DNA from: a virus
Length of the DNA stretch: 37,411 nucleotides
Strand: one strand, 5' to 3'
IMG/VR virus record: IMGVR_UViG_3300030202_002551
Location: 1-37,411 of that record
The position numbers were made by a program, and so were the translations under genes. Under the pieces are notes generated by a model, which had not been told where the DNA came from, searched no databases, and saw nothing but the letters and a program-made list of their open reading frames with translations. This document shows, in pieces, positions 30,709-33,077 of the stretch (its first letter is position 1; every line of letters begins with the position of its first letter).

Positions 30709-31683
30709 TCAAAAGCAATCAATTTTGATTCTATTTAAGTTTGTTTTGAGGTCTTCCCAGTTGAGTTCTCCAAAACCATCTTCGCGCATTTTCCGATAGA
30801 TCTCTAACTGATTGAAATTGCAATCAAAGTTTTCTATTGCGTTGTCAACAAAGGTCTTAGACTGAATCGAGAGTATCGGAGAATACAATTGCATCATTTT
30901 GTAATTATGTTCGATCACCTTTCGACCGTCGATGATGTTTGTGAAGAACTTCAGCTTACTGTCGGCACCTTCGCAAAATAAAATAACATCTTCGACTGTA
31001 TAGTCTTTCTCTGAAGCTAGAAAAGACAATCTTTTCTTAACAGATGTAACGCCGGCACCCTTGATACCTGGGAGGTTATCAGATGCGTCCCCAATAATAG
31101 AGCGTGCTAGTGCCATGTTGTTAGGGTGGACGCCAAATGTTTCGATAACACGCTTGGTATTCATTACCTCATCTACTGTTGGGCGGTATAATACCGTATC
31201 TTCATCACACAACTGCAAAAAGTCTTTATCATTGGAAATGATTACTTTCTGCCAGCCATCATAGTGGCGCATTTGAGTTACATACGAAATAACGTCATCG
31301 GCCTCTACTTCAGGAATCATAACTTGAACGATAGGCATGTGATTAACATAATCAATGGTTCGAGTTTGTTGCCAGATCTTGTTTTGTAAGATTTCGTCCT
31401 CAGTGAGGTTCTGAACGGCCCTGTTTAGGCGCAAGGGCTTGCGGCCGGCTTTATAGTTCTTATCCATACTGCGGCGCTTACGGGAGCCGTTAGGGCCATC
31501 CCACACAACAACCACAGAATCGGGTTTTGTCATTCTGATGAGTTTTTGCAGAATCTTAAACGAACCCTTAATACCGCCAATGGGATCACCATTGGTCGAT
31601 AAAGAGGGGTCTACAATGTAAGCCCTCAAAAACATGTTAAGTGCATCGATAACGATGACTCGCTTTTTATCTGTTAGTGTCAT
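30709..31683 (-). CDS. 5'-3' exonuclease / flap endonuclease (T4 RNase H type)
   Basis: I start at ATG 31683 with GGAG 8 bases upstream; an in-frame start 15 codons earlier lies in the preceding gene. The 324-aa product has the PIN/FEN pattern: VIVIDALNMFLRA (first Asp), VVVWDGPNGSRKR, IPEVEADDVIS, IISNDKDFLQL, and the helix-hairpin-helix IIGDASDNLPGIKGAG. It removes RNA primers and flaps at the lagging strand. The neighbours are helicase downstream and a 67-aa gene upstream, all in the unit opened by the promoter at 31894-31922. Confidence 0.92.
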   Translation of the reverse strand: MTLTDKKRVIVIDALNMFLRAYIVDPSLSTNGDPIGGIKGSFKILQKLIRMTKPDSVVVVWDGPNGSRKRRSMDKNYKAGRKPLRLNRAVQNLTEDEILQNKIWQQTRTIDYVNHMPIVQVMIPEVEADDVISYVTQMRHYDGWQKVIISNDKDFLQLCDEDTVLYRPTVDEVMNTKRVIETFGVHPNNMALARSIIGDASDNLPGIKGAGVTSVKKRLSFLASEKDYTVEDVILFCEGADSKLKFFTNIIDGRKVIEHNYKMMQLYSPILSIQSKTFVDNAIENFDCNFNQLEIYRKMREDGFGELNWEDLKTNLNRIKIDCF

Positions 31684-31870
31684 TATATTCTCTCCATAGT
31701 TTGTCTCTTCTTGAAATCGCAGTTGCAATCATATTGTGTAGTCTCGCCCAATCAGGGTTCTTAGACAATATACGTTCTGCTATTTCACCCGGTTGTGGGA
31801 ATTCTTCTGGCGTATACTCAAGTGATACCTTGTCGCATGCACCACACATCTCATGATGTGTCTTACTCAT
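31667..31870 (-). CDS. Small leader-position protein of unknown function
   Basis: The 67-aa frame starts at ATG 31870. Its ribosome site GGAGG (31883-31879) lies inside the 3' arm of the terminator hairpin at 31871-31913, 8 bases before the ATG. The product has CGAC at 9-12 and then a helical segment rich in Ile, Ala and Arg. Its last 17 bases overlap the exonuclease start. No family is recognised. As first gene of the exonuclease unit it may couple translation to the next gene. Confidence 0.65.
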   Translation of the reverse strand: MSKTHHEMCGACDKVSLEYTPEEFPQPGEIAERILSKNPDWARLHNMIATAISRRDKLWREYNDTNR

Positions 31871-31913
31871 AAAAAAGCCCTCCGTCAGTTAATATCATAA
31901 CCGATCGGAGGGC
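31871..31913 (-). terminator. Intrinsic terminator after recA, overlapping a promoter and a ribosome site
   Basis: On the minus strand GCCCTCCG (31913-31906) pairs perfectly with CGGAGGGC (31884-31877). The loop is 21 bases, and six T follow (31876-31871). It lies 19 bases after the recA stop. The loop holds the -10 box of the next promoter, and the 3' arm holds the Shine-Dalgarno of the next gene. Confidence 0.88.
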
Positions 31914-31922
31914 CAGAGTCAA
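31894..31922 (-). promoter_or_regulatory. Sigma-70 promoter embedded in the recA terminator
   Basis: TTGACT (31922-31917) and TATGAT (31899-31894) with a 17-base spacer on the minus strand. The spacer contains the terminator's 5' arm and the -10 box lies in its loop, so RNA begun near 31887 lacks that arm. It should drive the 67-aa gene and the exonuclease. Confidence 0.82.
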
Positions 31923-31931
31923 GTATTTTCT

Positions 31932-33077
31932 TTACTCTTTTACGGGAACTGTTATATCTTCTTGATCTTCATAAAACTCTTTTGCGCTCCCTTGCCGCTT
32001 GTCGAACTTCTGAATGATTTCCTTATCCATGAGATCCAAGACTCTCTTCTTGAAATCCTCATCGGAAGTAATCAACTCCGTCCATTTTGAAGGTTGGAAC
32101 TTCTTCGAGTATCCATCGGGCGTAGCAAATGTATACCATGCGCCGGCAGATGTAAGGTGTTCCGAACCTTTGATTGCATCAAACCAAGATTCCTCATCTC
32201 GAATACCAACCTCGTCAGTGCCCCACATAATGCGGAAAGCACACGAACGACCTGCGGTACCAAAACGAGATTTCTCTAGTTTCACCTTAACTTCGGAGCC
32301 AATACGGAATCCTTTTTCGTCTTCGATGAAGGCAGACTTAGCTTTACGGCCAGTCAACCAAATACGAAGAGAATAAGCATAATGCATTGCCTTACCACCA
32401 GGGGTGATATAAGGTGTCGTCATTGCAATTTGTCGAGCCATAGGGCCCTGTGGAATATTGGTCTTCAACTGATTGAGAACAATAAACGTAGCTTGTTTGT
32501 CCGCGATTGGAATAACAAGCTTTGACATTCCCTTAGCGAGAATGCGGGCTTTGACAGCCATTGATGATTGGGGGTTGAAATCACCCTCAACATCAGAGAT
32601 TGACGGCGTAAATGCCAACGAATCCCAAATAAATACCAACTCTTCATCTGTTGCGCCAAGCAGTTCTTCGATAGTCTCAAGAACAAACTCAACGGATGAT
32701 GCTTGAACGTACATTAATCGCTCTAGGTCGCATCCTGCGCGCTCTAAGAAGGTTGGGTCGATGGCAGACTCCGAATCGAAGTAAACAACCATCTTGCCCG
32801 CTTTCTGGGCGTTTGAGGCAATCTGCGTTGCCATGTAAGATTTACCGGTCGATTGAAGACCTGCAATCTCTGTGATTTTACCGACAGGAATGCCAGCAAC
32901 TTGACCCTTACAAATAATTGAATCAAGCCAGCGTGATCCTGTGGGGATCCACTCCTTGACAGATGTTGGGTTGTCACCGGACAAGTTGTGTGCTACTGTT
33001 TGGCCGGCTTTTTTGTTAACAATTTTCATCAGATCTTGCATGTTAACGCGACCTGCCTTGGGTTTGGCTTTTGCCAT
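31932..33077 (-). CDS. recA: RecA/UvsX-type recombinase
   Basis: The 381-aa product has the RecA core: Walker A GLQSTGKS at 73-80, VVYFDSESA, Walker B LVFIWDSLAF, FIVLNQLKTN for the allosteric loop, and the L2/GGKAMHYAYSLR region. It forms filaments on ssDNA and carries out strand exchange in recombination-dependent replication and repair. The C-terminus is acidic and charged. It starts at ATG 33077 with AGGAG in front and follows the lipoprotein gene and one hairpin repeat. Its transcript ends at 31871-31913. Together with SSB and helicase it makes a T4-like set. Confidence 0.95.
   Translation of the reverse strand: MAKAKPKAGRVNMQDLMKIVNKKAGQTVAHNLSGDNPTSVKEWIPTGSRWLDSIICKGQVAGIPVGKITEIAGLQSTGKSYMATQIASNAQKAGKMVVYFDSESAIDPTFLERAGCDLERLMYVQASSVEFVLETIEELLGATDEELVFIWDSLAFTPSISDVEGDFNPQSSMAVKARILAKGMSKLVIPIADKQATFIVLNQLKTNIPQGPMARQIAMTTPYITPGGKAMHYAYSLRIWLTGRKAKSAFIEDEKGFRIGSEVKVKLEKSRFGTAGRSCAFRIMWGTDEVGIRDEESWFDAIKGSEHLTSAGAWYTFATPDGYSKKFQPSKWTELITSDEDFKKRVLDLMDKEIIQKFDKRQGSAKEFYEDQEDITVPVKE

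Follow-up and report, generated by a model that had tools for sequence, protein, structure and literature searches.

A hairpin with nested promoter, terminator and ribosome-site signals downstream of recA in a marine phage: a candidate self-insulating gene junction

The recA locus and the hairpin that follows it

The window analyzed here spans 37.4 kb of a marine phage whose IMG/VR virus record is 54.4 kb long. On its minus strand, a DNA polymerase A-like ORF, a gp32-like SSB gene, a small lipoprotein-like ORF, and recA/UvsX are followed by the element described here, which lies directly 3' of recA, and then by a 67-aa ORF, a 5'-3' exonuclease gene, a DnaB-like helicase gene, and a class II ribonucleotide reductase gene. 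With regard to membership of the T4-type phages, the window mixes a gp32-like SSB and a UvsX-like RecA with a DNA polymerase A and a class II RNR. The recA/UvsX-like gene (31932..33077, minus strand; 381 aa) matches Pfam RecA (4e-35) and a UvsX-like PHROG, and its stop codon ends at 31932. The 67-aa ORF (31667..31870, minus strand) has homologues that are 76-96% identical and found at the same place in relatives; it has no Pfam or PHROG match and no known family. The exonuclease gene (30709..31683, minus strand; Pfam 5_3_exonuc_N, 4e-28) begins with the ATG at 31683, with GGAGAG upstream. The first-pass annotation of this DNA had the ATG at 31870 open an exonuclease unit; the unit stands, but it begins with the conserved 67-aa ORF, with the exonuclease gene in second place. 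The nearest relatives of the window are uncultured viral contigs. BLAST searches against annotated phages with the window DNA and with the 67-aa ORF gave no match, and thus no annotated phage was found with the post-recA element. Elsewhere on the minus strand, a promoter-like TTGACT-16-TATAAT site (30707-30680) without a strong hairpin is located right after the exonuclease stop codon and before the helicase gene, and a strong terminator-like hairpin (12874-12845; 13-bp stem, 4-nt loop) is followed by a T-run and then by GGAGA and an ATG, with this SD outside the stem.

We found that terminator, promoter, and ribosome-site signals share one 52-base hairpin after recA. The first-pass annotation had placed the −35 and −10 boxes, the stem, the T6 tract, GGAGG, and the ATG exactly, base for base. 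All lie on the minus strand. The −35 box TTGACT (31917..31922), which is invariant in the aligned relatives, is separated by a 17-nt spacer (31916-31900) from the −10 box TATGAT (31894..31899), which reads TATAAT, TATGCT, or TATTCT in relatives. Based on sequence, folding, and covariation, the 5' arm of the terminator stem, GCCCTCCG (31906..31913), lies within the promoter spacer and constitutes the anti-SD. The 3' arm, CGGAGGGC (31877..31884), assigned from sequence and fold, holds the SD GGAGG (31883-31879). It is followed by the T6 tract of the terminator (31871..31876), which doubles as the spacer between the SD and the ATG of the 67-aa ORF (31870-31868) and is of the kind linked to a 5' arm in the enrichment test described below. 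In the full RNA fold, the 8 bp of GCCCTCCG/CGGAGGGC and an outer G-U pair are separated by a bulged A (A31905) from a 7-bp inner helix, UCGGUUA/UAACUGA, whose arms are TCGGTTA (31898..31904; MFE and centroid) and TAACTGA (31885..31891) and which is capped by the 6-nt loop UGAUAU (31892..31897). Because 31904-31898 pair with 31891-31885, the −10 box is paired at its first two bases, leaving only its last four in the loop. The hairpin is, therefore, larger than initially described: the 8-bp stem and T6 were recognized, but the bulge and the inner helix were missed, and the proposal that the −10 box lies in the loop holds for its last four bases but not for its first two. The transcription start, deduced from the −10 box, would be expected at ~31889-31885, within the 3' arm of the inner helix.

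The hairpin has an MFE of −29.8 kcal/mol compared with −12.5 ± 2.7 kcal/mol in shuffles (z −6.4; 0/200 as stable), and it also forms in a longer read-through RNA context (MFE and centroid). The first-pass annotation had claimed a switch in which read-through RNA hides GGAGG and RNA started at the promoter frees it. Folding predicts this behavior: GGAGG has a computed probability of being unpaired of 0.000 in the read-through RNA versus 0.946 in the promoter-started RNA, and GGAGG is unpaired in the MFE structure of RNA begun at 31889. Across the family, the computed unpaired probability of GGAGG in read-through RNA is <0.1 in 24 of 32 distinct post-recA elements, including that of the window. 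A detector that combines a promoter, a nested hairpin, a T-run, and an SD in the 3' arm returned a single match in the window, the post-recA site, and none in 12 shuffles of both window strands. No Rfam family matched the window above its gathering score.

Conservation and natural variants among relatives

Reading the DNA 3' of recA in 80 loci whose RecA is 82-99% identical, we found the TTGACT promoter in at least 43 of the 80, with two more (L048 and L053) having it with an 18-nt spacer and two contigs ending too early to judge; many relatives lack the element. Most relatives that keep the promoter also retain the hairpin; in these, stem pairs have changed on both sides, G-U pairs occur, and the spacing is still 17 bases. 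In the aligned relatives, TTGACT and the 17-nt spacing stay constant while the stem sequence changes, e.g., from GCCCTCCG/CGGAGGGC in the window to CCCTCTGA/TCAGGGGG in L004 and CCCTCCAA/TTGGAGGG in L002, and the diverged stem of L015, CCCTGATC/GATCAGGG, is still paired. Among 12 distinct unshifted elements, 98.1% of cells are paired, compared with 41-58% in registers slid by 1-3 columns, and three stem pairs are changed on both sides compared with 0.3 in shuffles (0/500 reached this value). The modest count of double changes reflects how similar these sequences are. G-U pairs are frequent at inner and outer stem positions, which fits an RNA structure rather than a DNA operator. The closest relatives keep both the stem and the promoter boxes, the loss of which the first-pass annotation had named as counterevidence, and the compensatory stem changes at fixed −35/−10 spacing that it had suggested looking for are present.

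The gene after the element differs among relatives, i.e., it is the 67-aa ORF, the exonuclease gene directly, or a gene for a UvdE-like endonuclease. Copies that fit a strict pattern were found once in each of the genomes G000, G001, and G002, and the detector found one SD-type copy per genome; every match checked from a family-specific scan lies after recA.

The natural variants separate the three signals. Both hairpin and promoter persist in L011 and L015-L017, but their SD lies outside the stem, arguing that SD hiding is dispensable and making the translational half of the model less certain than the terminator/promoter half. In L032, L042, L044, L045, L048, and L051-L053, the T-run is degraded and the SD-containing hairpin is kept, suggesting that termination may be dispensable in places. 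The promoter occurs without the hairpin in L038 and L057 and with only a weak hairpin in L050. In other relatives, the element is absent and the next gene abuts recA; examples are L029, L030, and L069, in which the 67-aa ORF starts with an ATG overlapping the recA stop codon, and L046, where the exonuclease gene immediately follows recA. In none of the 80 loci did we see a hairpin without a promoter. Altogether, these partial variants show that the promoter is the constant core and that some relatives do without the terminator and others without SD hiding.

Recurrence before unrelated genes

We scanned IMG/VR with the pattern TTGAC-N18-TATNNT-N(6-22)-GGAGG-N-TTTTT, in which the 5' arm is left unspecified. 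In many of the matches, the spacer holds a perfect complement of its own GGAGG arm, e.g., TTGACAAAGCCTCCCTATTCGTGTATAATATATGTATATTGAATAGGGAGGCTTTTT. A first statistic that allowed G-U pairs was replaced by one restricted to Watson-Crick stems because its baseline was too high. Among the matches listed, 7 of 33 viral clusters have a Watson-Crick stem of ≥8 bp that joins the spacer to the SD arm, with 0.29 expected from shuffled spacers, as do 6 of 65 clusters in bacterial genomes, with 0.33 expected. A matched viral scan without T after GGAGG gave a spacer arm in 0/75 clusters among the matches listed; with a threshold of ≥7 bp, the comparison, again among the matches listed, is 7/33 viral clusters with a T-run versus 0/75 without (Fisher p 1.5e-4). 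The spacer arm is thus tied to the T-run, which argues for a terminator. Among the matches listed, the 5' arm lies in the spacer/−10 zone in 44 cases, upstream of the −35 box in one, and after the −10 box in one, a bias that is partly forced because terminators limit loop length.

At least about 45 good elements, phage and bacterial, precede 23 unrelated protein families among the matches listed. These families include dUTPase, deaminase, sigma factor, phosphoesterase, and RNA ligase as well as products of chromosomal-type genes (Ogt, a BirA-like protein, a response regulator, and flavin reductase); the nested layout precedes chromosomal-type genes in L345, L347, L370, L373, L429, L454, and others, and many of the contigs are from Clostridia. 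The −35 box of the unrelated elements usually begins 5-15 nt past the upstream stop codon. In all 44 unrelated nested elements among the matches listed, the computed unpaired probability of GGAGG is >5-fold higher in the promoter-started RNA than in the read-through RNA. This recurrence before unrelated genes suggests a reusable way of separating neighboring genes. With a relaxed whole-genome detector, matches other than the SD-type were not clearly above the shuffled expectation, so that detector does not support a claim about the number of elements per genome. For one unrelated case (L127), the annotated T5-like D2 homologues carry ordinary, non-nested promoters, and in Microcystis phage Mel-JY01, the nearest annotated phage by RecA, recA is followed by a plain terminator-like hairpin.

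Known systems and interpretation of the junction

We consider it likely that the element functions as a one-piece, self-insulating gene junction. According to this model, a polymerase passing through recA would make the whole hairpin, and the 15-16-bp stem together with U6 would end the transcript. The −35 box sits just before the hairpin, with the 5' arm filling the spacer and the −10 box at the hairpin top, so that a transcript begun at ~31889-31885 would carry the 3' arm only. Without the 5' arm, this RNA could not form the terminator; consequently, it would not terminate itself and its GGAGG would be free, allowing the unit with the 67-aa ORF and the exonuclease to be translated. RNA reading past the terminator would keep GGAGG paired and, hence, be translated poorly at the ATG at 31870. 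Sequence and computation show the parts, their conservation and covariation, the G-U pairing, the predicted opening of GGAGG, and the recurrence before unrelated genes; we infer that the promoter is active, how efficiently transcription terminates, where it starts, and how translation is affected, and recognition of the −35 and −10 boxes is likewise deduced from consensus only. The interpretation is supported as a model, with SD hiding less well supported than termination and initiation. The predicted leader of the nested-promoter RNA, which is only ~15-19 nt long, counts against it.

Arbiol et al. (2010) and Comeau et al. (2014) reportedly described PeSL (promoter-early stem-loop) cassettes in the T4-type phages RB49, phi1, PST, and nt-1, with the title of the latter calling them composite promoter-terminator motifs; the stem-loop is said to be an effective terminator, with many copies in hyperplastic regions (dozens in RB49) and an association with gene shuffling. 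In RB49 intergenic regions, we found that some hairpins fill the −35/−10 spacer and that in others the 5' arm occupies the spacer and the loop contains the −10 box, as in the window element; the copies examined have a separate SD (GGAGAATCAAA-ATG and similar) downstream of the hairpin and no T-run. Like a PeSL, the window element fuses a compact sigma70-type promoter with a stem-loop that ends upstream transcription, termination being predicted here from the stable stem and T6, and several RB49 intergenic regions share its nested layout. By contrast, the SD of the window element is the 3' arm itself, with its T6 tract, and its family has one copy per genome rather than dozens. PeSLs are mentioned in PMC4503421.

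In the T4 genes e, soc, 49, and I-TevI, long read-through RNA hides the SD in a hairpin, whereas a promoter located at the hairpin's 5' strand gives rise to RNA that lacks this strand and is translated (PMC3014915, PMC2988022). A 100-fold block was reported for gene e (PMC3014915), and the late promoters delay lysis or endonuclease genes (PMC3014915, PMC2988022). The window element resembles this arrangement in that, by computation, its SD is paired in the read-through RNA and free in the RNA from the internal promoter. It differs in having a −35/−10-type promoter with TTGACT instead of a T4-type late promoter, and in the terminator T-run of its hairpin, which, unlike the gene e-type hairpin, would also stop the transcript. 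An intrinsic terminator followed by an independent promoter would do the same job of ending one unit and starting the next; however, in the window, the two share bases in an arrangement that keeps RNA started at the promoter from folding into the terminator. The most fitting name for the window element is a PeSL-like junction whose stem incorporates the SD. Both halves are known, from PeSL cassettes and from T4 gene e-type SD hairpins, and their fusion appears to be new: in the literature searched, which covered few subscription papers, we found no earlier description of a nested promoter-terminator-SD element.

Overlapping the signals could also be a matter of pure compaction, in which case termination and initiation would be real and SD hiding would be an unselected by-product of a GC-rich GGAGG/CCTCC stem. 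We regard this as possible, if somewhat doubtful: the relatives with the SD outside the stem (L011 and L015-L017), the RB49 PeSLs, which are nested hairpins with a separate downstream SD, and the upstream stop codons, often only 5-15 nt before the −35 box, all speak for economy of space, but the SD-containing stem persists in the relatives whose T-run is degraded, and an SD in the stem recurs before at least 23 unrelated protein families. It is rather improbable that the element is a PeSL-like mobile regulatory cassette that also serves as a homology patch for the exchange of neighboring genes between related phages. The three different genes that follow it after recA, its absence elsewhere, and an architecture that matches one RB49 PeSL form are consistent with such a cassette; however, the close relatives that have it carry a single strict-pattern copy per genome, compared with dozens in RB49, and the checked matches of the family-specific scan all lie after recA.

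We find it very unlikely that the hairpin is an ordinary terminator with a chance promoter-like match. In this AT-rich DNA, a 17-kb stretch has 55 promoter-like sites versus 34 expected, and a promoter match of 10/12 is weak alone; rather, the promoter is credible because it is conserved in relatives, where TTGACT and its 17-nt spacing persist despite stem change and where L038 and L057 keep the promoter without the hairpin, while the reverse case was seen in no relative. Least credible, and rejected here, is a DNA operator, in which the dyad would be a repressor or activator site over the promoter and the RNA fold incidental: the dyad center is near the −10 box, a usual operator position, but the G-U pairs and the asymmetric A bulge break DNA symmetry and keep the RNA stem, the T-run, where present, is on one side only, the arm sequence varies between relatives and phages with pairing kept, and a GGAGG-pairing arm was found in 0/75 clusters without a T-run among the matches listed.

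Returning to the self-insulating junction, a broader version of the model holds that the element belongs to a repeatedly evolved and widespread class of tripartite junctions in unrelated phages and bacteria, many of them Clostridia. In this class, one palindrome would act as terminator, promoter, and SD. Which RNA is made and translated would depend solely on whether its 5' end is upstream or downstream of the 5' arm, and each gene unit would thereby be sealed from its upstream neighbor in both transcription and translation. To us, the case for and against this generalization is evenly balanced. If the model is correct, ~50 bases would form a natural one-way insulator that stops the upstream message, starts a new one, and blocks leak translation, and would provide a small, ready-made insulated promoter. 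It would also change the annotation of promoters and terminators in compact phage genomes, where the two kinds of signal are generally annotated independently. Variants found in nature, with the SD outside the stem or without the T-run or the hairpin, offer a ready set for separating transcriptional from translational effects.

Hairpins also occur on the other side of recA. Upstream of recA in L024, a hairpin fills the −35/−10 spacer (TTGACT-CCACTAATATACAGTGG-TATTAT), which is the other form of RB49 PeSL, and L019, L021, and L022 have a spacer hairpin with weaker pairing at this place. Between the SSB gene and recA, the 35-codon lipoprotein-like ORF of the window is flanked by copies of another conserved hairpin, GCCGCTGGCAGACCGGT(N)AAA(A)GTCTGCCGC, at 33290-33258 and 33127-33095 on the minus strand. 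This hairpin has no Rfam match; we found 79 copies in 55 loci with the loop kept and one two-sided stem change, from CAGAC/GTCTG to CACAC/GTGTG.
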